Shown: positions 3,644-25,295, counted from the stretch's first letter. The stretch is DNA of 35,606 nucleotides from Microcaldota archaeon (GCA_021804095.1 JAJZKQ010000006.1:1-35606), one strand, 5' to 3'. A program made the numbers and translations. Notes: generated from the sequence alone by a model not told the origin.

Positions 3644-4117
3644 TTATTCCTTTACCTCAAGTTTGAATGCCCTTCTCTCACTGTTGCTTCTTATAGTAAA
3701 TAACTCAGGAGGAACTTCATTAAGGCCTATTTCCTCAAAGCCCATCTCCAATAAGAGCTTATTCCCCCTCTCCGTCCTGTTTTTTATTGCTATAAATATG
3801 GCCTTATGATTCTTTGATAAAAAATCATCCAATAATCTTCTGGTCATTTTATATGCTATTCCCTGGCCTCTGAAATCCTCAAGCACTACTGCAGAACGCA
3901 GTTCAGCCCAACCTGATTCAGGCCAGAGATCAAGTGCTTCATGCCCTACTATCTTTTTGTCTGATACAGCAACAACGGACTTCTTAGACCTTATCCACCT
4001 TTTTACTGTATCAGAGCTGACTTTCATGACCGCCCCGGATATCTCATGCTCTCTATTTATCAACTTCACTATCTCTTCTATCTCGCTACTCCTGCCCAGC
4101 CTTATCTTTATTTCCAT
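3644..4117 (-). CDS. GNAT N-acetyltransferase (ArgA-like pattern)
   Basis: RLGRSSEIEEIVKLIN...ELRSAVVLEDFRGQGIAYKMTRRLL...GNKLLLEMGFEEIGLNEVPPEL. Confidence 0.82.
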   Translation of the reverse strand: MEIKIRLGRSSEIEEIVKLINREHEISGAVMKVSSDTVKRWIRSKKSVVAVSDKKIVGHEALDLWPESGWAELRSAVVLEDFRGQGIAYKMTRRLLDDFLSKNHKAIFIAIKNRTERGNKLLLEMGFEEIGLNEVPPELFTIRSNSERRAFKLEVKE

Positions 4118-4147
4118 ATTATCCTACCGAGATACAAAAATTCAGAA

Positions 4148-5272
4148 TCAAGGCCTTTCATCTTTACCCATCAATGCAACTAAAAGCCTTGATACGGTCT
4201 TCATATCCTCTATTCTTATGTATTCATCTTTCGAATGCGGAAATCCTCCCCCTCTAGATATTCCCAAGATGGGATATCCTCTATCCACAAGAATATTTGC
4301 TTCTGTAGTGCCTTTAATTGCAGAAACTGAAAATCTTACCCCGGCCCTTTCTGCAGCTCTCTTCGCATAATTCAATATCTTTAGGTTTCCTGAAGCGAAC
4401 GGGTCCATCAATTCTTCCTTATTTACGGTAAGCTTGTAAGCTGCCCCATATTTTTCGCATATCTTAGCTACTATCTTTTCCATACCTTCAAATCTTCTAT
4501 CCATGGGACCCTTTTCATATCCTCTAATCTCTCCCTCCATAATCACATAGTCAGGCACTACGTTGGCCTGCCTCCCGCCAGATACCTTTCCTATATTCAT
4601 AGTTATTCCTGATCCATCTGACCCTAGCTTCAGTATCGATAATATGATTCCTGCTATCTTTATTGCATTTATTCCCTTTTCAGGATCATTTGCGGCGTGA
4701 GCCTCTTTCCCATAAATCTCAAGTTTGAAAAGCAGATATCCTCTGGACTTATTAATAAATCCTCCAGCACTCTCTGAACCATCAATCACAAAACCAAAAT
4801 CTATCCTCTCTTCCAAATTCAGAAATTCCACTCCCATCCTTCCTTTTTCTTCCCTAGTCGAGAAGACCGCTATTATATTATTCCTCTTCTTTTCCTTGGA
4901 AATTTTACCCAACGCATCAAGCAGGGGTGCAATACCTGCCTTATTGTCAGCTCCTAAGATTGTCTTTCCGTCGCTCTTTATGATTCCTTTATCTGTTACT
5001 GTCTTTATTCTTCTGTCACCTATCTCTACAGTATCCATATGTGCTATAAAAAGAATAGTCTTCCCGCTTCCTTTCAACTTAACAATCAAATTCCCGGAAT
5101 TACTATCATTAAGCCTTCCGGTTTTGTCAAAATAAGGCTTAATCCCAAGATTCCCAAGGTATTTTTTAATATACTCGGCAACCTCAATCTCGGAACCACT
5201 TGGAGAAGGTATCGAAACAAGTTCATAAAAAATCTTTGTAATGTCTTTCAAAATATAACCTATCTTCTGCAT
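4148..5272 (-). CDS. M20-family metallopeptidase (PepT/ArgE/DapE-like)
   Basis: FIAHMDTVEIGD, LGADNKAGIAPLLDAL, FSTREEKGRMG, 'VSGGRQANVVPDYVIMEGEIRG' dimerisation domain, and C-terminal GGGFPHSKDEYI. Confidence 0.92.
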   Translation of the reverse strand: MQKIGYILKDITKIFYELVSIPSPSGSEIEVAEYIKKYLGNLGIKPYFDKTGRLNDSNSGNLIVKLKGSGKTILFIAHMDTVEIGDRRIKTVTDKGIIKSDGKTILGADNKAGIAPLLDALGKISKEKKRNNIIAVFSTREEKGRMGVEFLNLEERIDFGFVIDGSESAGGFINKSRGYLLFKLEIYGKEAHAANDPEKGINAIKIAGIILSILKLGSDGSGITMNIGKVSGGRQANVVPDYVIMEGEIRGYEKGPMDRRFEGMEKIVAKICEKYGAAYKLTVNKEELMDPFASGNLKILNYAKRAAERAGVRFSVSAIKGTTEANILVDRGYPILGISRGGGFPHSKDEYIRIEDMKTVSRLLVALMGKDERP

Positions 5273-14979: not shown

Positions 14980-15085
14980 GCAGGGATGGCAGAGCCTGGT
15001 TTGGCACCTTGTGCCACAGAAAAACGCGCAGGACTTAAGATCCTGTGGCCTAGCGCCTTCGAGAGTTCGAATCTCTCTCCCTGCA
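14980..15085 (+). tRNA. tRNA-Leu (anticodon TAA), with about 20 extra nt in or after the D-arm (possible intron)
   Basis: Acceptor GCAGGGA/TCCCTGC-A; anticodon arm CAGGA-CTTAAGA-TCCTG; T-arm GAGAG-TTCGAAT-CTCTC; total 106 nt. Confidence 0.85.
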
Positions 15086-15149
15086 AATCCAATCTTTGAC
15101 GTCAAGCAAGGGTTTGGAAATCCGAAACGGAAATCAAGGAGGCACCTCC

Positions 15150-15349
15150 ATGGACTGACTACCCACAGCCTTCGGCACTATTCCATAACCAGCTTTGCCA
15201 AGCAGACTAACGGGAATCTGGTGCTGACAAGCAGGTTCGCTAGGCACAGCGATCCCAGCACTACAATGATCTACATTACAGCACGCAAAGAGGAACTATA
15301 CAAGGAAATAGACAACGCCTTTGGCCTGAGCGAAGCTGTTGTGGCCTGA
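15150..15349 (+). pseudogene. Tyrosine recombinase (integrase) C-terminal relic no. 1
   Basis: GLTTHSLRHYSITSFAKQTNGNLVLTSRFARHSDPSTTMIYITARKEELYKEIDNAF: HxLRH...H...Y catalytic-block pattern, directly downstream of tRNA-Leu. Confidence 0.8.
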
Positions 15350-15371
15350 AAGAGAGGCTCTCCAAGCCATT

Positions 15372-15578
15372 CTAGCTCTTATACCTAGCCTCGAATAATT
15401 TGCTGCTCACACTCCATGCCTTCCTGAATACGTGCTTCTTTTTCCTCTGGCACGCCCTGCATTCATCCTTCATCTTGAATATCTCTTGCGCTGTCCTCGG
15501 TTTCCCAGCCTTGAGGTCAAAAGTCATTGCATTATGCTTTTTGCAGAGATTCCAAACGATTAGAGACCCCCCCAGCAA
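15372..15578 (-). CDS. Small CxxC-containing hypothetical protein (island cargo)
   Basis: 68-aa ORF 'NLCKKHNAMTFDLKAGKPRTAQEIFKMKDECRACQRKKKHVFRKAWS'; single CxxC. Confidence 0.35.
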   Translation of the reverse strand: MLGGSLIVWNLCKKHNAMTFDLKAGKPRTAQEIFKMKDECRACQRKKKHVFRKAWSVSSKLFEARYKS

Positions 15579-15584
15579 ATCCAG

Positions 15585-15845
15585 CTAGGCTAGGAGCTTG
15601 TCAAATTCATTTACTGATAGGTCTGCCTCTCGCATTATGGTTCGTACCATGCCTTTGCCTATCGGCCTGTGGGCTGGAACTACGATCATGTTTTCCGGCT
15701 TGCGTTCTCCAAAAATAGATGCATACTTTGTCTTATCGGATAGCTGCATTACTATGTGGCTGCCTTTCTGGTGGCTTACTTTGTAGCCTGCGTTAGTGAG
15801 GGCTTTGATTACCCTGTCGTAGTTTATGGGCGCTAGCCTAGACAC
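15585..15845 (-). CDS. hicA: HicA-family toxin (mRNA interferase)
   Basis: VIKALTNAGYKVSHQKGSHIVMQ...VPAHRPIGKGMVRTIMREADLSVNEFDKLL, HicA pattern with catalytic 'GSH'. Confidence 0.92.
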   Translation of the reverse strand: MSRLAPINYDRVIKALTNAGYKVSHQKGSHIVMQLSDKTKYASIFGERKPENMIVVPAHRPIGKGMVRTIMREADLSVNEFDKLLA

Positions 15846-16047
15846 TTACCTGCACCATCTCTACTGGGACAGGGTCGCCGTGCTTCTTCAGCGTTTCTAG
15901 ATAAGCCTGTATTGCCTCCTTAACGTTCTTCATCAATTCCTTTCTGGTCTTGCCTTCCGTAGCGCAACCTGGCAGATCCAGAACCTTGGCTACATATAAT
16001 CCATCTTCGTCTTTCTCTATTATTACTCTGTACTTCATCCTTTCCAT
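15838..16047 (-). CDS. hicB: HicB-family antitoxin
   Basis: YRVIIEKDEDGLYVAKVLDLPGCATEGKTRKELMKNVKEAIQAYLETLKKHG. Confidence 0.92.
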   Translation of the reverse strand: MERMKYRVIIEKDEDGLYVAKVLDLPGCATEGKTRKELMKNVKEAIQAYLETLKKHGDPVPVEMVQVSV

Positions 16048-16097
16048 GGTTATATTACGTATGTGCAGATATTAAATCTTTCCTCGAATCACCACTA

Positions 16098-16235
16098 ACA
16101 AGCAGGTTCGCTAGGCACAGCGATCCCAGTTCCACCATGATCTACAGCACTAGAAAAGAAGAGCTATACAAGGAGATAGACAATGCCTCTGGCTTGAGTC
16201 AAGCCATAGACCTGAAAAGAATGTTAAGTCATTGA
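16098..16235 (+). pseudogene. Tyrosine recombinase C-terminal relic no. 2
   Basis: SRFARHSDPSSTMIYSTRKEELYKEIDNASGLSQAIDLKRMLSH*; 32 bp (16098-16129) identical to 15227-15258, then diverged. Confidence 0.8.
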
Positions 16236-16242
16236 ACACAAT

Positions 16243-16470
16243 CTAGTCTAGAAGCTGCTCAAATTCTTCGACTGTTAAGCCAGTCTCCCTTATTATTGCA
16301 CGCAATGTGCCTCTTGGCACCTCTTTTCTATTTGGCACTACAGCTCTTCGATGTGGAGGCTGCGTATTTCTGAGTATTATGTGGCTTCCCGTTTGATGGT
16401 CGTATCTATATCCAATCTTGGATAGTGCCTTGACTACCTCTGCCGCTGATACTATAGGAATTTTAGGCAT
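16243..16470 (-). CDS. hicA: HicA-family toxin, second and divergent copy
   Basis: VVKALSKIGYRYDHQTGSHIILRNTQPPHRRAVVPNRKEVPRGTLRAIIRETGLTVEEFEQLL. Confidence 0.93.
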   Translation of the reverse strand: MPKIPIVSAAEVVKALSKIGYRYDHQTGSHIILRNTQPPHRRAVVPNRKEVPRGTLRAIIRETGLTVEEFEQLLD

Positions 16471-16687
16471 TCACATTCACCGATACGACTTCCTCTTTTA
16501 TAGAAGGTGGTATCGGCTCGTTGTGCTTCTTGAGACTAGCCAGATAACCGGCTATGGCATCCTTGACGTTCTCTATGGCCTCTTTTCTAGTCTTGCCATC
16601 AGAAACGCATCCGGGCAACTGAGGTACAGTAGCTACGAATACGCCGTCTTCGTCCTGCTCTATTTCAACCCTGAAATATCTTCTCAT
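16463..16687 (-). CDS. hicB: HicB-family antitoxin, second copy
   Basis: FRVEIEQDEDGVFVATVPQLPGCVSDGKTRKEAIENVKDAIAGYLASLKKHNEPIP. Confidence 0.93.
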   Translation of the reverse strand: MRRYFRVEIEQDEDGVFVATVPQLPGCVSDGKTRKEAIENVKDAIAGYLASLKKHNEPIPPSIKEEVVSVNVNA

Positions 16688-16749
16688 GTCCGTTCACTGT
16701 ATATTATACAGCCCAAGCTATTTAAATTTAGGAGGTGTCCTGGCCCTAA

Positions 16750-16798
16750 CTAAAGACCTCCGGGCGACTAAAGACCCTATAGCTCAAAAGGTCTTTAG
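16750..16798. repeat. Repeat cluster CTAAAGACC (two direct copies, one inverted)
   Basis: CTAAAGACCT 16750-16759, CTAAAGACC 16768-16776, AGGTCTTTAG 16789-16798. Confidence 0.7.
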
Positions 16799-17024
16799 TA
16801 GGCTCTCGACGAACCAGCTTAATGTAAGTGTAGAGAATGAGCCGAATCAGATAGGAAGTGACAATAACACCACGAGCAGCGGCCCATAACACAAATTGCT
16901 TGAAGATACGCTGGACATCTGCACGCTTAGAAATTAAGATATGGGTTGGATTATACGGTCGCATAACCATATTCCTTATATTGGAGCTTACGTTACTGTT
17001 CGCATAACCTTATGCAAGGTTCAA

Positions 17025-17051
17025 GGTTCAGATTTTCCGGAAATCTGAACC
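17025..17051. repeat. Perfect 11-bp inverted repeat, 5-nt loop
   Basis: GGTTCAGATTT-TCCGG-AAATCTGAACC. Confidence 0.75.
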
Positions 17052-17187
17052 GTTTCTGCTTATATGCCTCGCTAAGCTATAATTCACGGTTCAGATGAAT
17101 CGGCTTTGGCTTAGAATCTTGCGTTGTTTTTGGTGTGAAATATGGCTAGAAATATAGACGTGAAACATATAGAAAACGCTCTCAAAC

Positions 17188-17226
17188 CCCTAGCGGGTTC
17201 GAGAGTTCAAATCCCTCTCCCTGCAA
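17188..17226 (+). pseudogene. tRNA-Leu-like 3'-half (variable arm to discriminator), candidate att remnant
   Basis: ACCCCTAGCGGGTTCGAGAGTTCAAATCCCTCTCCCTGCA aligns with the tRNA-Leu 3' end (CCTAGCG..TTCGAGAGTTC.AATC.CTCTCCCTGCA); no 5' half adjacent. Confidence 0.8.
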
Positions 17227-17239
17227 ATTTTCCATCTTT

Positions 17240-17290
17240 AACAAAGTGAGCTGGAGTACCACTTTGTTTATGAGTCTGATCAAATCAGAC
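17240..17290. repeat. Two consecutive short hairpins downstream of the tRNA-like remnant
   Basis: AACAAAGTG(17240-17248)...CACTTTGTT(17260-17268); GTCTGAT-CAA-ATCAGAC (17274-17290). Confidence 0.55.
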
Positions 17291-17633
17291 CGCAGAAAAG
17301 TGTATAAACATGCATAACAATATAAAGCCATGGAACTTGCAAATGCATATAAGTTTAGAATAAACATATTGCATAGAAGGGCTATTTTAGGACAGAGGAA
17401 AAATCACGCTCAAGGAGATATGGGATTTAAGATGCAACAGGCATCCAAAAGCCGCACCAAAGAACTGAGAACTAACAAAATACATTCTTGCCAGGAGGCA
17501 ACGATCGCATGATACAGAAGAAGCCCGAATTATTTATGGACGGAAGGATATTACAAGTATTACTAAATATACTAATATCTCGTAACAATATCCTAAAAGC
17601 ATCAATCCAAAAGAAAATCGTATTGATTCAAAT

Positions 17634-17774: not shown

Positions 17775-20015
17775 TCAATCTCTAAAACTATTCTCTCTTT
17801 CTTGCTCTCCCATATCTATGTCTATTCTGCATCCTCCGTAAAAATCAAAAATCCTGGTGCTCTTTTTCGTTTTTCCAGGAATTACCATCTTATACTTCTT
17901 CTGCTCAAGTAAATTCTCAATTAAAATCTGCCCGTTTTCATCAGCAAAAACGGACATTATCGGTTCTCCAAGATACTTTATTTCTATAGGTGTCTGTATA
18001 CCTTTAAAATATTCCTTATCCTTAATTAGATTTATCCTGGTAATTTTTCTATTTATGACTTCATGCGTTTTAGGATTACTATCCTCTTTTTTCAAAAAAT
18101 ATTCCGGTATTTTTAAGAATAACGATTTTTCAGGTTTCTTAATCTTATCTTCCGAGCTTACATAATTCACTACACATATTCTATACTCAAGCATCTTAAG
18201 CCTTTCTTCAAGTTCTTCAGTTTCACTTCCTTCAAATATAAGGTCATTTGCAGCATACTTTACCGAATCTGCACTCTGTCTAAAATAAACCTTGTTTTGG
18301 CATAACCTCCTTATCCTAAGGTTTATGTCAGTGACACTATGTGTTATAAGCATTACTCCTATTCCCTTCTTTCTGAAATCCTGAATTCTCTGTCTTAAAT
18401 CAAGCATGGCTGCAGATTGTTCATCAGAATCAAAGATAAGCTGCGCTTCTTCAAGACATATGACCATCCGCAGTTCATCATTGCCTTTTTCATCAGTCAG
18501 GTCGGCAAACGAATAAATCTGGTTTAATGTTAGTGCGTAGAAAAAGGGCTTCATACTGTTACTTATTCCTGAAATGTCAAAAACCATGCCTTCTCTTATG
18601 ATCTTAAATAATTCCAATCCATCATTGTATGCAAATTGAGGCTTCAATAATATTAATCTCAGGTTCTGCAGGGCTGCCCTTATATTCTCACCATGTTTGC
18701 TATATCTTACCCCCGTATTGTTTCTCTTTCCATGGTTCTCTATAATCATCTCTTCTATCTTCTCATATACATAGTTTGGATCCGGATCAAGAGTCTCAGA
18801 ATAAATTTTGCTAAATGCAGAAAGTAAACATTTCTCCATGGAATTTTTATATGGTCCGGCATTAGAAGCATGCGCAAGAAGCATTGCAAGATTTTCATAA
18901 AATTTTTCTTTATTGCGTGTATTTTCACATCTGAAGAAATTGATCTTAAAATCTTCATCATGGAACTTTAATACCCTGATTCCTATCTTATTTGCAAAAG
19001 CTCCCCATTCTTCTGTAGGGGCTATTATTGTGATATGGCTTCCACTTCCTTTTAGTTGGTCTAATATATTCATGGCAGCAAATGTTTTACCTGTGCCAGG
19101 CAAACCTGTTATAAGCGTGCCCAGATTAAGTGTTGAGGGATCTATCTTAATCTCCTTGCTATCTTCCCTTACCGAACCCTCAACATAAGAGCCGAGCGAT
19201 ATGCTATCTGTGTTTTTACTATCCTTATTAATCTCTGTATTTATTACTTTCAACCTTCGGGTCTTCTCTGGAAAGTTTATCAAAAATTCCGCATTTCTAT
19301 AAGAAATAGGAAACGAGTCACAATTTCTAACCTCATTCCATATTTCCTTTAGCGTGCTTGATCTAAGTTTCTTCTCACCTAAAACTAACATCTTAGAAAG
19401 CAAATAATTCTCCAAAGAAGAATTATCACCATCTGTCAATATCAGATTTGATCTGTATCCAACTCCGTTTTTCACTATTATGTCATTTAAATTATTCAAA
19501 ACTGCAAGAGTTACCCTTCTTCTTCCTGAATCATAATAAAGTTCGCTTTGAGCGGATCCCGAATCTTCTCCAAATCTCTTATCCCCAAAATTTTTAGATA
19601 TGCGTATTTTATCGCTGCTAGCAAGCTCTTCGACCTGTTCTTTCAAAGTTCTTATGTCTCTTTCAGAAGAAGGAACAAATGATAATATAAGATCAGAAGA
19701 ACTACCTTCCAATACTCTATGTATGTTATCCAATATCGGACATTCTTTTTCCTTAATATCTCTCGTATCAAACGCTATTAACGCCTTAGGATTCTGTACC
19801 TGCAATTCATAATTCTGTAAATTCTTTAATCTCATCCCAAGCACTGCATATGAAAGCCTCTCCCCTATTCTACAATCTTCTGAGACTATAAAAGACCTGC
19901 TTTCCTTGAACCTATGTATAAGCATAAACTGCAACCCTAACATCGAATCAAGGAAAAGTTCCGTGTCAAATTTCTCCGGAACCGTCTCTATCTCAAAAAC
20001 TTTTAAAACCATCAA
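17775..20015 (-). CDS. HerA/TraG-like P-loop ATPase (DNA-transfer cluster)
   Basis: Walker A LITGLPGTGKTFAAMNIL; Walker B MVICLEEAQLIF; 'FRKKGIGVMLITHSVTDINLRIRRLCQNKVYFRQ' sensor region. Confidence 0.85.
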   Translation of the reverse strand: MMVLKVFEIETVPEKFDTELFLDSMLGLQFMLIHRFKESRSFIVSEDCRIGERLSYAVLGMRLKNLQNYELQVQNPKALIAFDTRDIKEKECPILDNIHRVLEGSSSDLILSFVPSSERDIRTLKEQVEELASSDKIRISKNFGDKRFGEDSGSAQSELYYDSGRRRVTLAVLNNLNDIIVKNGVGYRSNLILTDGDNSSLENYLLSKMLVLGEKKLRSSTLKEIWNEVRNCDSFPISYRNAEFLINFPEKTRRLKVINTEINKDSKNTDSISLGSYVEGSVREDSKEIKIDPSTLNLGTLITGLPGTGKTFAAMNILDQLKGSGSHITIIAPTEEWGAFANKIGIRVLKFHDEDFKINFFRCENTRNKEKFYENLAMLLAHASNAGPYKNSMEKCLLSAFSKIYSETLDPDPNYVYEKIEEMIIENHGKRNNTGVRYSKHGENIRAALQNLRLILLKPQFAYNDGLELFKIIREGMVFDISGISNSMKPFFYALTLNQIYSFADLTDEKGNDELRMVICLEEAQLIFDSDEQSAAMLDLRQRIQDFRKKGIGVMLITHSVTDINLRIRRLCQNKVYFRQSADSVKYAANDLIFEGSETEELEERLKMLEYRICVVNYVSSEDKIKKPEKSLFLKIPEYFLKKEDSNPKTHEVINRKITRINLIKDKEYFKGIQTPIEIKYLGEPIMSVFADENGQILIENLLEQKKYKMVIPGKTKKSTRIFDFYGGCRIDIDMGEQERENSFRD

Positions 20016-20016
20016 C

Positions 20017-20202
20017 TCACAATATAAAAATCACCGCAAACAATATCAAAAAATTAATCAAAACCAAAGAAAATACCTCAGAACTTTTTATTGTCTTTAT
20101 CCTCTTGTATGAAAAACAGGCAATTATTATCCCTATGACAGAGAGTAATAGTGTATATTCAAGTTTAAAATTCAGAATTAATCCTATTCCCAACATACTC
20201 AA
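20017..20202 (-). CDS. Small hydrophobic membrane protein
   Basis: 61 aa, at least 2 TM segments; frame is open upstream to about 20286 without an ATG/GTG start, so the true N-terminus is uncertain. Confidence 0.55.
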   Translation of the reverse strand: MSMLGIGLILNFKLEYTLLLSVIGIIIACFSYKRIKTIKSSEVFSLVLINFLILFAVIFIL

Positions 20203-20282
20203 CTCAATATTTCCGCAGGCTGCCGCAAATTTTAAAATAGTGTAATCTTTCCTTATTTTCTGAATATAATGCTCTACAAACT

Positions 20283-20486
20283 CTATCTAATCACCTCATA
20301 AATAATAAAAGAAAGTGTAAACAAAAATGAGAACCCTACACTCTTGTTAATCAAAATTTTTCTGTTTTTTCTATTCGAAAGCAATGCGGCATCTATTAAA
20401 AAACTCGAAGCTATCGCACTCATTTTCACTGTAGATAAAAGAAAACCTCCAACAATATTCATCCAACCACTAACTAATAGTAACAA
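20283..20486 (-). CDS. Small hydrophobic membrane protein
   Basis: 67 aa with 2 hydrophobic segments, overlaps the upstream gene. Confidence 0.55.
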   Translation of the reverse strand: MLLLVSGWMNIVGGFLLSTVKMSAIASSFLIDAALLSNRKNRKILINKSVGFSFLFTLSFIIYEVIR

Positions 20487-20949
20487 TCCTTATTCTAGAG
20501 ACTAATACATAATGCAAAAGGAGTCCGGAAAACGGATCAAACCTAAGTATCCTATCTAAGAATTCCCTCCGACCTGTAGAAAATACACTAATTCTATCTT
20601 CTAAAATGAGATTGGCAAAAGGTTTTGAAGGATCTCCAAATCTAAAATCAAGAATACCGAGTTCTCTTTTGCAGAGAGACTTATAGCTATTATCCTCTAT
20701 TCCACTCAACAATCCATTAATGATAAGTTCTTCCCTTCTGAAAATATTAAAAAGATCCTCAAGATATGGGTATCTTTCCCTTTCCATCTCCTGATTATTT
20801 TTACAGGGCAGATTTCCAGTATACTCTATTCTATCTAGATATACTTTTATGGTGTCTTTCGATATCTTAAATGATCTGGCAACGTAAAAAAATAAGATGC
20901 CTAATGGTATAGGTATGAAGTTCCATAAATAACTAATAGAAAAGCTCAT
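20470..20949 (-). CDS. Membrane-anchored hypothetical protein of the DNA-transfer cluster
   Basis: N-terminal TM (YLWNFIPIPLGILFFYVARSF) and soluble domain; overlaps adjacent genes. Confidence 0.7.
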   Translation of the reverse strand: MSFSISYLWNFIPIPLGILFFYVARSFKISKDTIKVYLDRIEYTGNLPCKNNQEMERERYPYLEDLFNIFRREELIINGLLSGIEDNSYKSLCKRELGILDFRFGDPSKPFANLILEDRISVFSTGRREFLDRILRFDPFSGLLLHYVLVSRIRIVTIS

Positions 20950-21569
20950 GCTCTCACCAAAGAGTAATTACCATCACGCAAGAGAATTTTTCTATAACCC
21001 GAATCCTCCAATTTCTTTATAGCAAAAAGTATATCTTCCTCATTAAATCCTGTTTCTTCTACTATTGTTTTAATTCGTAAATTATCGCGATATTTATCCT
21101 GTATATACTTTGATAACAATGCTATGGAAGTAGACTTTATTTTATAAAGATCTACACTTAGTTTTTTATTCTCATTATGAAGCATGTTTATTCTTTTTGC
21201 AAGAATTATGTCTGTTTCACGGCTCTCTGTATGCAATACTTCTATCTTTTCAAAAATGCTAGCGATTCTGCCTGAACCTAAAACTCCAATTATATATGGA
21301 TAAATATCTTCAAAATTAGCAGAATAGTGGTCTTTTAAGAAAGCAAGAATGCTTAAAAGCCTCAAAAGCCCATCATGCATATAATATTGGGGCTCCACAA
21401 GTGAAAAAATCTGAAAGACTATTCTTTCTCTCGAAAAGCTTATTGTAAAATAATGGTCATCTACGCCTTCATCAACAATATACTCTCTTTCTGTTCCTTT
21501 TCTTACGCATCTGAGTTTTGGATATTCTTCTATCTTCCTGATTGTGGAAACGAACTTCTCATTCATCTT
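20946..21569 (-). CDS. Hypothetical protein with C-terminal winged-helix-like domain
   Basis: 'DNLRIKTIVEETGFNEEDILFAIKKLEDSGYRKILLRDGNYSLV' resembles wHTH; ATG at 21569 (MNEKF) suggested over the track start 21620. Confidence 0.6.
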   Translation of the reverse strand, partial: KMNEKFVSTIRKIEEYPKLRCVRKGTEREYIVDEGVDDHYFTISFSRERIVFQIFSLVEPQYYMHDGLLRLLSILAFLKDHYSANFEDIYPYIIGVLGSGRIASIFEKIEVLHTESRETDIILAKRINMLHNENKKLSVDLYKIKSTSIALLSKYIQDKYRDNLRIKTIVEETGFNEEDILFAIKKLEDSGYRKILLRDGNYSLVRA

Positions 21570-21600
21570 AACTCCAATAGAAATCCTGCTTACTAGAAAT

Positions 21601-22737
21601 TTACCCTTCGACATCCACATCTCCTCTTACCATTGCAATTGCGAAAGCATCTGATATGTCCTCTTCTGGTATTTTCAGCTTCATAAGGCATCTCAGCATC
21701 TTCCTTCTATCTGCTTTAAGTCTGATCAGGCATGCAACAAGATATGAAAGTTCTACTTCCTTCTCTGCAGAAATTTTCCTTATTAAATCAGAAGGATCAT
21801 CCCTGACAAGTTCATTTACCATCTTCCTAAATCTACCGTATTCTACTTTTATCATATCATCCCCAAATAAAATAGTAAGATAATCTCTGAGCCTTACTCC
21901 TATTACCTGCTTTATAAAAAACGCATCTCTCCTTTTTGTTTTATGCGTCTGCACCACAAAACATTCCCCCACTTCAAGATTCTGTATCCTATTTAATGTT
22001 TTTTCATCAAGCCCATAACTTTTCGAAAGTTTATTGAGGCTGTTTTTGTTCTGGATCCTAAAAACAAACAATACTGCAGAATTGTAGAGCATAGGTATAT
22101 CAATATCCTCAAGCATCTGGGAGGCCATAACAATTCCTACGCCGTATTTCCTGCCCTCTCTAACTATGCTTTCAAGGCTATTTATCTCTTTTAAAAATTT
22201 CCATGCTTCGTCTAGGAATATGAAAACCCTGAAATCTCCATCCGCATTCCAGAATCTCATATTCCTGTCTATCTTATTTAAAAGATCGGAGACTCTTCTG
22301 CTCTTCTCTTTCTCTTCTAGATTTTTCAGATCGTAATAAATAATTGCATAATCCTCCTTATTCCCCTCCTGATCTTCAATTCCGAATAAACGGTCAAGTT
22401 TCAAAGAAGAATCCTCCCTATTTGTATTCGAAAGTTCTGCGTATTCCCCATTAAGGTCTATGACTACTATCTTGCACCCCAGCAAAGAATAAATTTTGAG
22501 CATAAGGCTCTTCATGAGATATGTCTTTCCACTTCCGCTCATTCCAAGTATAAATGTATGTGGATTTAAAAGAGATCTAAAATTCAGGAAAAATGGCATA
22601 GAATACTCTAATGATCTTCCTACAAAAACTCCCCCTTTTGAATATTCAATTGCCTCATCTCCTCTCTGTTCATTCATATTTGGGATTACAACTATTCCAG
22701 ATGCAAACAGCGATCCTGTAATAAAACCATTTCTCAT
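21601..22737 (-). CDS. VirB4-like ATPase domain protein
   Basis: GGVFVGRSLEYSMPFFLNFRSLLNPHTFILGMSGSGKTYLMKSLM; VVIDLNGEYAEL; FIFLDEAWKFLKEINSLESIVREGRKYGVGIVMASQMLEDI. Confidence 0.9.
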   Translation of the reverse strand: MRNGFITGSLFASGIVVIPNMNEQRGDEAIEYSKGGVFVGRSLEYSMPFFLNFRSLLNPHTFILGMSGSGKTYLMKSLMLKIYSLLGCKIVVIDLNGEYAELSNTNREDSSLKLDRLFGIEDQEGNKEDYAIIYYDLKNLEEKEKSRRVSDLLNKIDRNMRFWNADGDFRVFIFLDEAWKFLKEINSLESIVREGRKYGVGIVMASQMLEDIDIPMLYNSAVLFVFRIQNKNSLNKLSKSYGLDEKTLNRIQNLEVGECFVVQTHKTKRRDAFFIKQVIGVRLRDYLTILFGDDMIKVEYGRFRKMVNELVRDDPSDLIRKISAEKEVELSYLVACLIRLKADRRKMLRCLMKLKIPEEDISDAFAIAMVRGDVDVEG

Positions 22738-23462
22738 CAGAACCCCTCAATTAAATTAACAAGTTCTTCCCCGTTTGCAATTTCATATTTTACTCCCAAT
22801 GCAGCAGAGAACGAGTCTCCTATCTGCATAATATTCGAATAGGCTTCCCTGGAAGCCTCAATCTCACTACCGGAATTAGCAAAAGCAAAAACCCTGATAA
22901 ACATATCCAAAGCTCTTCCTCCGGTTCTAATACTACTTATTTCGCTTTCAAGAATGTCTATTTCCCTCTTTAATGAATTTACTTTATCGTGCTTTTTAGG
23001 ATCTGTCCTAGAAAGCAATATCTCTTTCATCCTTTTTTTCGTTTCGATTGTATCATAAAGCCTCTTGCTATCGACCTCCTTGATCGTGACTCTAAACTCG
23101 AAAGGCAACCTTATACTTTCTATTACCTCTTTAACCCTGCCATGGTCTACCAGCTTTTTCTCTTCAGGCATTATAACCGCAATGGCAACTGCCACATATC
23201 CTTCATCGGTCTTCTTTATCATTGAATTGAGATTATGGGAAAGCCAAAATCCATTGCACATCTCTATTATTGCGGATTTCCTAAGAATCAAATTGTTTAT
23301 CATGTGCCCACTGTTAAAATAAGCAACAGAGGAAAAAATCATAACTGCAGTAAATGCTACTAAATATATATTTGAAAAAAAGACTGAACATAAAATTGTG
23401 AAAGCCCCAATTCCATAAAGCATGTAAGCGTACACTTTTTTATCCTGTGTTTTATTATCCAT
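22737..23462 (-). CDS. TM protein resembling VirB3/PrgI-like TMs fused to a VirB4 N-terminal domain
   Basis: N-terminal hydrophobic pair, then 'FEFRVTIKEVD...LKREIDILESEISSIRTGGRALDMFIRVFAFANSGSEIEASREAYSNIMQIGDSFSAALGVKY'; TGATG overlap with the ATPase gene. Confidence 0.65.
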   Translation of the reverse strand: MDNKTQDKKVYAYMLYGIGAFTILCSVFFSNIYLVAFTAVMIFSSVAYFNSGHMINNLILRKSAIIEMCNGFWLSHNLNSMIKKTDEGYVAVAIAVIMPEEKKLVDHGRVKEVIESIRLPFEFRVTIKEVDSKRLYDTIETKKRMKEILLSRTDPKKHDKVNSLKREIDILESEISSIRTGGRALDMFIRVFAFANSGSEIEASREAYSNIMQIGDSFSAALGVKYEIANGEELVNLIEGF

Positions 23463-23465
23463 AAA

Positions 23466-24518
23466 CTAACCTAACATATAAAATCTGCCAAAGGAAGCTT
23501 CGCTTCCAAGCAGTTCAGAAAGCTCCTTTATCGATATTCCTGTTATTATAAGGCTGAAAGCAGGAAGTATGAAAGTATAAACTATAAAATATGCCACAGC
23601 TGAGAATATCTTGTCCAGAAGTAGCGCAATATTATTTTGCAGAGAGGTTACCGCTCCGGATATTTTTCCAATAACGCCATTATCCTTTGTACTGTTATAA
23701 TAACTTCCTGAAGAAAACAACTGGTTCTCCACAGATACTGCCGAATATGTCACATTTGTTATTCCGGACGAAGAAGCACTTTGAAGGAATGAACTTGATA
23801 TTGCCATATTGAAAAGATATGAAAGAGGCAGTACTACATACAGGCCTATGCTTACCGCTATAAAAAACCCGCCAAGTTTTCTAGTGGGATAAAATGACCT
23901 TAGTATAAGTCCCAATGGCAGCATTATACTCAGTGCTCCAACAGCAACAAAGGATAAGACTGCCGCCTGGACCAACACGCTTATAGCTACCGTGCTGAGA
24001 ATCTTGATTATATATTGTATTTCAGTTATTACGGGCAAAAAAACATAACTAAAAGAGAACTGTACAAACTCAAGATTTATTTTAACTGAAGAAATTGCAC
24101 CTACCACCGCATTTAACGCTAAAAGTGAAGTTATGGTACCCGAAACCATTGAGAATATGGGCTGGTGATCTTTTCCCATAAATGTGTAATCTCCAGATCC
24201 TGCAAGATAATCATAAGAGAGGCATATGGACGGATTTGAGCTCATATATCCCAAACAGTTTATCTTTGTGCCATTGACAATAACTAAAGAGTTTATCATA
24301 CTTCCGATCAGTCCGGAAGGCGTGAAAAGCAGAATTAGCGTACCAACCAATATCCCGTTTATTACAGACTGGTATAATTCCTCTCTTCCAAATTCTTTGA
24401 ATTTTTTCTCGTTAAGTGCATAGCCTATTCCCAATGAAAACCCGCTTAATGCTATCATAATACTTATTACGTATACGGATATTGCGTATCCCTGGTATCC
24501 TAAAAGAATATTTGCCAT
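23466..24518 (-). CDS. Polytopic membrane protein, VirB6/TrbL-like
   Basis: 350 aa with many TMs; position between pilin-like and VirB4-like genes; 'AFSLIITGISIKELSELLGSEASFGRFYML' C-terminus. Confidence 0.65.
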   Translation of the reverse strand: MANILLGYQGYAISVYVISIMIALSGFSLGIGYALNEKKFKEFGREELYQSVINGILVGTLILLFTPSGLIGSMINSLVIVNGTKINCLGYMSSNPSICLSYDYLAGSGDYTFMGKDHQPIFSMVSGTITSLLALNAVVGAISSVKINLEFVQFSFSYVFLPVITEIQYIIKILSTVAISVLVQAAVLSFVAVGALSIMLPLGLILRSFYPTRKLGGFFIAVSIGLYVVLPLSYLFNMAISSSFLQSASSSGITNVTYSAVSVENQLFSSGSYYNSTKDNGVIGKISGAVTSLQNNIALLLDKIFSAVAYFIVYTFILPAFSLIITGISIKELSELLGSEASFGRFYMLG

Positions 24519-24522
24519 CTAT

Positions 24523-24915
24523 TCACAGTGTGTTTGAGGTAAAATTGGAGAGAATATGTGTCGATGCTATTGCAAGATTTGTAGAAGCTACAGAGAGGAC
24601 CGCAACGACAACAGCGCCTATTATAATATCTATGGCCATCGTATGAAGACTTGCCCTCTTATAAGAAGGAAACAACTGTCCAACAGCGTAAAATATGCCT
24701 CCAAGAACAAAAAGCATAGCGCTGAATGCAGGACCTATTCTCATGAGAAGCAGCTGTATATTTTGTATAGTACCAAAAATATCCAGTGAAATATATTCCG
24801 CATTTACTATTCTGAATATCACTCCAAAACCCATAAGCATTGCAACTGATGTCTTCAGCAGTATTCTCCTTACTGTCTTCCCATTATTCATGTTTATATC
24901 CAAGTAATCATCCAT
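24523..24915 (-). CDS. VirB2/TrbC-like two-TM protein (pilin candidate)
   Basis: LMRIGPAFSAMLFVLGGIFYAVGQLFPSYKRASLHTMAIDIIIGAVVVAVLSVASTNLA; start at 24915 preferred over track 24978 because a TATA-like TTTATATATTTA lies at about 24946-24957. Confidence 0.65.
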   Translation of the reverse strand: MDDYLDINMNNGKTVRRILLKTSVAMLMGFGVIFRIVNAEYISLDIFGTIQNIQLLLMRIGPAFSAMLFVLGGIFYAVGQLFPSYKRASLHTMAIDIIIGAVVVAVLSVASTNLAIASTHILSNFTSNTL

Positions 24916-25295
24916 ATACTTTAGTATAAACCTTTTACTACAATAAATATATAAATATTTAGGAAGAGCATTAATCACAATGCGATAAGTATCCCACAGA
25001 ACTGTAGAGAAAGAATCAGTGCCATAAACAATCTTTCACTACCAACTAAGGTGGTTTTGGGCGATTTTCCGCTCAGATACGGTGAGAAAAGCCTCAATAT
25101 GCTCCGGTAAAATCCGATTTAGTGAATCGGATCAGGTCAAAAAGTCAGAACTCCATTGCTCAAAGCGGCGAGTCTAAGTTGTGGTATCTTTTTCCTTGTC
25201 AATACCGGGTGCAATACCCTCTATGCAAAGTTCTTTGCCAAATAAACAGATCGCGCTCCGAGAAGCCGAATCACTCTTCATCAAATTCCATCTGC

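Follow-up and report, generated by a model that had tools for sequence, protein, structure and literature searches.

Remnants of two integrase genes and two toxin-antitoxin (TA) pairs lie between a tRNA-Leu gene and a second copy of its 3' end, which raises the question of what was inserted at this tRNA and why these parts of it have been kept. The locus is part of the window, the whole stretch of 35,606 nucleotides analysed, which is contig C36 of a draft archaeal genome (811 kb, 41 contigs, 83% complete). The island at tRNA-Leu(UAA) spans positions 14980-17228 of the window; inside it are the 3'-end relics of two integrases and two HicBA pairs that are intact and differ from each other (Table 1). 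Relatives carrying the same integrase are Candidatus Micrarchaeota MAGs and a few from Marsarchaeota, and a mobile-element system is thereby placed in ultra-small DPANN archaea; the open literature searched held nothing relevant on such systems in these organisms. Among phage records the sole match to the window was tRNA-Thr, and a search of plasmid records found no relatives of the integrase.

Table 1. Features of the island at tRNA-Leu(UAA), in window positions (int, integrase gene; int(N), its start-bearing part; int(C), its catalytic part)
Feature	Position	Strand	Basis
tRNA-Leu(UAA) target gene, with non-canonical D-arm insert	14980-15085	+	full length kept in relatives
attL, tRNA 3' end, counterpart of attR	15049-15088	+	direct repeat D3
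Left element end: 5' part of int(C), SRVRISLPANPIFDVKQGFGNPKRKS, in frame with tRNA 3' end	15062-15140	+	alignment
Junction of internal int deletion, about 580 bp	15135-15140	+	alignment breaks
Integrase relic 1: C-terminal end (HSLRHY...RHSDPSTTMIY), without Arg I	15140-15349	+	profile and alignment
Truncated orf88, first 18 codons lost	15375-15584	-	HMM match 19-87/87, E 2e-43
hicA-1 toxin gene, intact	15585-15845	-	Pfam HicA_toxin, 1.7e-12
hicB-1 antitoxin gene, intact	15838-16047	-	Pfam HicB_lk_antitox, 9e-11
Integrase relic 2: final codons of int, about 45	16095-16235	+	repeat and alignment
hicA-2 toxin gene, intact	16243-16470	-	Pfam HicA_toxin, 2.9e-16
hicB-2 antitoxin gene, intact	16463-16687	-	Pfam HicB_lk_antitox, 3e-11
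Junction of 1.85-kb cargo deletion, 16-bp overlap	16797-16812	+	L338 alignment
C-terminal remnant of 292-aa HTH/membrane cargo protein (...STNQLNVSVENEPNQIGSDNNTTSSGP)	16812-16889	+	comparison with intact elements
Right arm: conserved, short direct and inverted repeats, GGTG Shine-Dalgarno at 17132-17135	17009-17141	+	alignment
int(N) remnant, MARNIDVKHIENALKPLAGSRVQIPLPAN, running into attR	17142-17228	+	frame test
attR, displaced tRNA-Leu 3' end	17189-17228	+	direct repeat and own-genome match

In the tRNA-Leu(UAA) gene the acceptor strand GCAGGGA (14980-14986) pairs with TCCCTGC (15078-15084) and the anticodon is TAA. ARAGORN and Rfam made no call for this gene in the window, because about 17-20 nt are inserted in its D arm, and ARAGORN with intron options still did not recover it; it was recovered by comparison with relatives. 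The insert follows the pattern TGGC-loop-GCCACAG in an alignment of about 35 relatives, and the gene with its insert is present in nearly all of 61. Decay of the gene was rejected since the insert is kept in relatives, which makes this a real gene. It is best read as a functional tRNA in which the insert either enlarges the D arm or, more probably, is a conserved non-canonical intron of the kind known from ARMAN archaea. The initial annotation had called this an intact tRNA-Leu, which is right as to a real and conserved gene, although the D-arm insert means that it is not a plain one.

The tRNA-Leu-like 3' half that had been described at the far border is a real duplication, attL and attR being 90% identical over 40 nt (E = 1.9e-9 in a search of the own genome). 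It closes the island, as in tRNA-integrated islands generally. Just past attR is a TnpB pseudogene (17237-17526) in which the N- and C-terminal ends are joined and about 1 kb is missing; an intact 411-aa copy lies at L240 1575-2810, and several genomes of the genus gave similar matches. Further on, beside tRNA-Thr, genes for HerA/VirB4-like ATPases (AAA_10, DUF87, TrwB-like) and membrane proteins (17775-24978, minus strand) look like a type IV secretion or conjugation-like gene set.

The integrase family and the genes it travels with

Full-length integrases of the family were found by profile search in 86 of the 165 genomes of the order, with up to nine per genome. These genes are 250-300 codons long and encode the catalytic set of PF00589 tyrosine recombinases (Arg I, HxxR, His, Tyr); R71 (in LGxRxGE), H189 and R192 (HSxRH, the HxxR motif), H216 and Y225 are invariant in their alignment (A1). 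The window relics keep the HxxR-to-Tyr end only (relic 1) or less (relic 2). Relic 1 matches PF00589 positions 126-171 weakly (E = 0.011), and its family was settled by the full-length relatives; 30 of the 61 genomes searched gave a DNA match to it. The relics share exactly 32 identical bp, as the initial annotation had counted, within a 52-nt repeat of 90% identity. That annotation had staked its reading on tyrosine-integrase relics and on a tRNA 3'-end duplication, and proposed a search for full-length homologues; both features are borne out.

Among 80 distinct full-length genes, 55 have a tRNA gene in the 300 bp upstream of them (Leu 21, Glu 13, Ala 9, Val 4, Gln 3, Pro 3, Arg 2), and the elements of relatives are about 2-9 kb with int directly 3' of the tRNA. 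The own genome carries two further family integrases, one downstream of tRNA-Val on contig C1 with a DNA methyltransferase gene beside it (L042) and one beside tRNA-Glu on contig C3 with a RelE-like pair and stop codons in its N-extension (L222). At L371 (G141:C4) two full-length integrases lie divergently, about 0.5 kb apart.

A module convergent to int was present within 700 bp in 13 of the 17 Leu-type elements with enough downstream sequence (hand count). It comprises HicBA, orf88 and/or DUF2283, or a RelE-like protein with a small partner. The matches behind the name RelE-like are weak, ParE_toxin (E 0.003) and RelE_StbE (E 0.016) both being below cut-off, and orf88/DUF2283 is a candidate TA pair. 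Non-Leu elements more often have other cargo, for example a DNA methyltransferase gene.

The same tRNA-Leu(UAA) is occupied differently in other genomes. In G031 a full-length int, whose tRNA-derived frame is interrupted by one stop codon, is accompanied by a RelE-like pair, and G053 has int, two cargo genes and an att copy. An AbiEi/AbiEii-like pair lies there in G001, and in G006 and G028 AbiE pairs are bordered on the far side by a tRNA 3'-end copy, without an integrase. At loci L117, L118 and L123, from three species other than that of the window, the tRNA is followed by AbiEi/AbiEii-type pairs without an integrase, as TA-only islands. No distal att copy was detected in G010, where tRNA-Leu is followed by a GNAT gene and tRNA-Thr; this is the nearest to an empty site. 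The comparison of occupied and empty sites that had been suggested thus yielded intact relatives, other occupied states and one site without a distal att copy.

Both HicBA pairs in the window have HicA and HicB domains in adjacent genes and score above the Pfam cut-off. They are as divergent as had been claimed, the two HicA proteins being 36% and the two HicB proteins 59% identical. HicA-1 has 78% amino acid identity to L186 (dN/dS 0.13), dN/dS of hicB-1 is about 0.02-0.16, and for the window pairs together it is mostly 0-0.23 in the comparisons that could be scored. For HicBA-1 (15585-16047) the matches are HicBA loci in G043, next to tRNA-Glu, and in G031, next to an intact tRNA-Arg int; the integrase belonging to it is gone from the window. 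HicB-2 and HicA-2 have 100% and 96% amino acid identity to their counterparts at L313, L318 and L343 in other genera (dS 0.08-0.18). Identity between genera is typically about 40-66% for a chromosomal DUF981 protein, so HicBA-2 has spread horizontally in recent times.

That both pairs are open and conserved fits selection for keeping them, to judge from these substitution patterns. Toxicity upon loss of HicBA could plausibly help to retain the remnant. The pairs may instead be defence genes, with an anti-phage or stress benefit, or neutral cargo that has not yet decayed, a reading to which we give appreciable but less than even credence. AbiE pairs at the same tRNA in other species and the methyltransferase gene next to int in the contig C1 element favour defence; however, defence and addiction may both apply, and the window data fit either.

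Blocks of different origin

Alignment to intact elements establishes the sources of the left and right parts of the island. On the left, 50 bp of the int 5' end adjoin the tRNA, and 15062-15140 has 85-88% identity to the left ends of intact L338, L339 and L342. The stretch 15089-15140 matches sequence that lies about 580 bp upstream of the rest in relatives, and int is therefore internally deleted; alignments to L337, L339, L340 and L342 break off at 15135 and pick up at 15140. From there to 15586 the int tail and truncated orf88 match the int-orf88 elements L337, L339 and L340 at 80-88% DNA identity. orf88 is the normal convergent partner of the relic-1 type of int and is full-length in L122 (G004); in G004, of the same genus, tRNA-Leu(UAA) is followed by 38 bp of int leader and then directly by orf88. 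A third att scar at 15571-15583 (CCCAGCAAATCCA, repeat D7) was rejected, as the alignments of intact orf88 pass through it to 15584-15586.

On the right, the int tail with hicA-2 and hicB-2 (16096-16812, which includes relic 2) is 94-95% identical to intact L338 and L342, which lie at tRNA-Leu(UAG) in two other genera, and the right end (16797-17229) is 91-92% identical to the same elements. In L338 the corresponding positions are 1197-1916 for 16096-16812 and 3765-4192 for 16797-17226. Of the 1.85 kb of cargo in intact elements, the window retains only the last codons of the 292-aa protein. The right arm (17009-17229) is also 77-85% identical to L024, L029, L030, L032, L039 and L119. Within it, at 17026-17052, are a perfect inverted repeat (GGTTCAGATTT...AAATCTGAACC) and direct repeats, which could be recombinase arm sites. 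An 81-bp stretch at 16742-16822 contains the inverted repeat CTAAAGACC/GGTCTTTAG and has copies of 91-93% identity directly 3' of the int of tRNA-Ala elements (L201, L203); it is possibly a shared terminator or recombination site.

HicBA-1, judged by its matches, is a separate third block beside the left int-orf88 and right int-HicBA-2 blocks. Since the left and right blocks match different element types and HicBA-1 is separate, at least two elements, and probably three sources, contributed to the island. The initial annotation had placed each relic beside its own HicBA pair, which is correct for relic 2 and hicBA-2; relic 1 adjoins the truncated orf88 instead, what is left of the orf88/DUF2283 module that was its partner, and the idea of relic 1 and HicBA-1 as one unit was dropped. 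Besides orf88, the annotation had overlooked the int 5' end next to the tRNA, the cargo-gene remnant and the int(N) piece. Its picture of two related elements that integrated one after the other and decayed is supported as to successive related elements at one tRNA gene and as to decay that left TA modules behind, and has to be widened to at least two, probably three, sources.

A single integration of one composite element (or product of gene conversion) that carried both TA pairs, the 52-bp repeat arising as a later duplication of the int tail, would explain why only two att copies remain, and the cargo slot can be exchanged between elements. We regard this as unlikely, because the blocks match different intact types and have different divergences from them (80-88% for int-orf88, 91-95% for int-HicBA-2), and relatives (L026, L121, L357) contain tandem arrays in which att is present several times. 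The HicBA-2 module itself recurs at another tRNA-Leu array (L169, in G017), where int carries its own, different deletion between att copies.

An att site within the integrase gene

In 53 of 55 elements no stop codon interrupts the int frame between the tRNA 3' end and the int body, and 35 of the 55 have no ATG, GTG or TTG between tRNA and body. Both ends were available for 21 elements, which are related to one another and are therefore not independent. Read back through the distal att, the int frame reaches an ATG ORF in 20 of these 21 and the other two frames in none. The distal ATG lies 24-34 codons before the end of the att copy (20 elements), with GGTG just upstream in most cases. The first residues of the small ORFs are MARNIGVK in the Leu type and M(K/E)LE in the Glu, Gln, Val and Pro types, or similar. 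The test gave the same result for six tRNA identities (Leu, Glu, Gln, Val, Pro and Ala). Both reading frames through att are used, with the two halves agreeing in each case (L039, L215, L269 and L366 versus L030, L338 and L214). The exceptions are L029, off by one base, and L026, with a stop codon; L121 scores in the test although its ORF does not resemble those of the rest.

The window retains the two halves of int in matching frame: SRVRISLPANPIFDVKQGF follows the tRNA, and MARNIDVKHIENALKPLAGSRVQIPLPAN, with its GGTG at position 17132, precedes attR. In the relatives as in these remnants, the att core lies inside the int frame and separates int(N) from int(C). Read from these frames, the arrangement is the SSV-type 'suicidal' layout in a PF00589/XerA-like family. 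Integrated N-extensions have codon-substitution ratios of 0.66 (Leu) and 0.74 (Glu), only mildly below 1, as expected of short dead pieces. Internal start codons might allow some int(C) copies to be translated even in the integrated state.

In ordinary tRNA-targeting elements of the pNOB8 type, int would start downstream of att and stay whole after integration, and the distal in-frame ORF would be a by-product of the tRNA sequence. Some ATG, GTG or TTG does lie between tRNA and int body in 20 of the 55 elements, and some elements have a Met close to the start of the body. However, such a codon is missing in the other 35, the start codon and Shine-Dalgarno sequence are distal in 20 of 21 elements and always in the int frame, and both frames through att occur with matching halves. 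We therefore regard ordinary elements of this type as unlikely.

Formation of the island and comparison with known systems

The island is very probably the decayed remainder of at least two, and probably three, tandem elements of Micrarchaeota with self-splitting integrases, of which the HicBA pairs have been kept. An assembly chimera of repeated int and TA fragments is highly improbable: the bin is an incomplete metagenome draft, the region is rich in repeats, the contig of relative G003 breaks off within the same tRNA and the orf88/hicA-1 and hicB-1/relic 2 junctions were seen in one draft MAG assembly only, but the left junctions recur in G004, the HicBA-2 block occurs with the right end in G017 and both HicBA pairs have intact coding frames.

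In the free circle of such an element int would be whole, the att core would lie in roughly the first 30 codons of the gene, and the N-terminus of the integrase would be read partly from tRNA-like sequence. Insertion into the tRNA 3' end would restore the tRNA, leave the start codon and Shine-Dalgarno sequence of int at the far end as int(N) and fuse the catalytic part to the tRNA as int(C). Since integration separates int from its start, the layout implies that an inserted element should not make normal integrase, and it would then be unable to excise unless whole integrase were supplied from elsewhere. As the tRNA is restored, repeated insertion is allowed, which is seen as tandem att copies in relatives. 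Many Leu-type elements carry a two-gene module convergent to int, often a TA pair. At tRNA-Leu(UAA) an int/orf88 element, an int/HicBA-2 element and the HicBA-1 block would have been joined and then trimmed by deletions that remove integrases first, so that neither integrase survived while the two HicBA pairs remained open and conserved. We infer the order of integration and the loss of excision ability from this arrangement.

Self-splitting integrases have so far been reported only from the PF16795 (SSV-type) group (PMC8371274). It seems probable that the XerA-like integrases of Micrarchaeota became self-splitting independently, and that the TA slot takes over retention and outlives the integrase. 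The layouts are alike and the families differ. If true, a second, unrelated suicidal family would make integrase self-splitting a repeatable evolutionary solution and would provide independent replicates for asking why integrases split. Because the family is common (86 of 165 genomes), small and available in intact, decayed and tandem stages, a link between loss of self-excision and TA carriage can be tested by comparison.

According to a 2021 review of archaeal tyrosine recombinases, known suicidal integrases go back to a single event in the PF16795 group and are associated with hyperthermophilic archaea (PMC8371274). SSV-type (type I) elements such as SSV1, pTN3 and pT26-2 are likewise archaeal, have attP in int and integrate into tRNA genes (PMC8371274), and when they integrate their int is also divided, into int(N) with the start and int(C) with the catalytic part. 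In contrast, att lies at about codons 64-78 in SSV1 (annotated site) and at about codons 10-30 in the Micrarchaeota family, whose elements are only about 2-9 kb. Membership in the SSV integrase family was rejected. The family matched PF00589 alone at E values up to 10, with no match to Phage_integr_3 (PF16795), for which the SSV1 control gave 1.5e-61; the R...KxxR...Y motif of the SSV1 subfamily (PMC8371274) is absent, HSxRH being invariant in A1; and hhalign detected no similarity to SSV1 Int.

A second comparison is with archaeal XerA and pNOB8-type recombinases, the nearest solved structure by sequence being the XerC-like recombinase 4a8e (E 8.7e-5). The match to NCBIfam recomb_XerA_Arch is weak (44 bits against a cut-off of 220), and the Micrarchaeota int differs in lying beside tRNA genes and in being interrupted by att. 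The HicBA pairs resemble type II TA systems in the HicA Pfam domain with its GSH histidine motif, in their overlapping genes and in the adjacent short HicB-like antitoxin. They differ in that HicB is short (69 and 74 aa) and that the pairs lie convergent to the integrase in a recurrent cargo slot. With tRNA-bounded islands and tandem prophage or ICE remnants the island shares the direct repeat of the tRNA 3' end, the decayed integrase and the TA or restriction cargo; unlike these, the Micrarchaeota elements are very small and consist almost wholly of int and a two-gene module.
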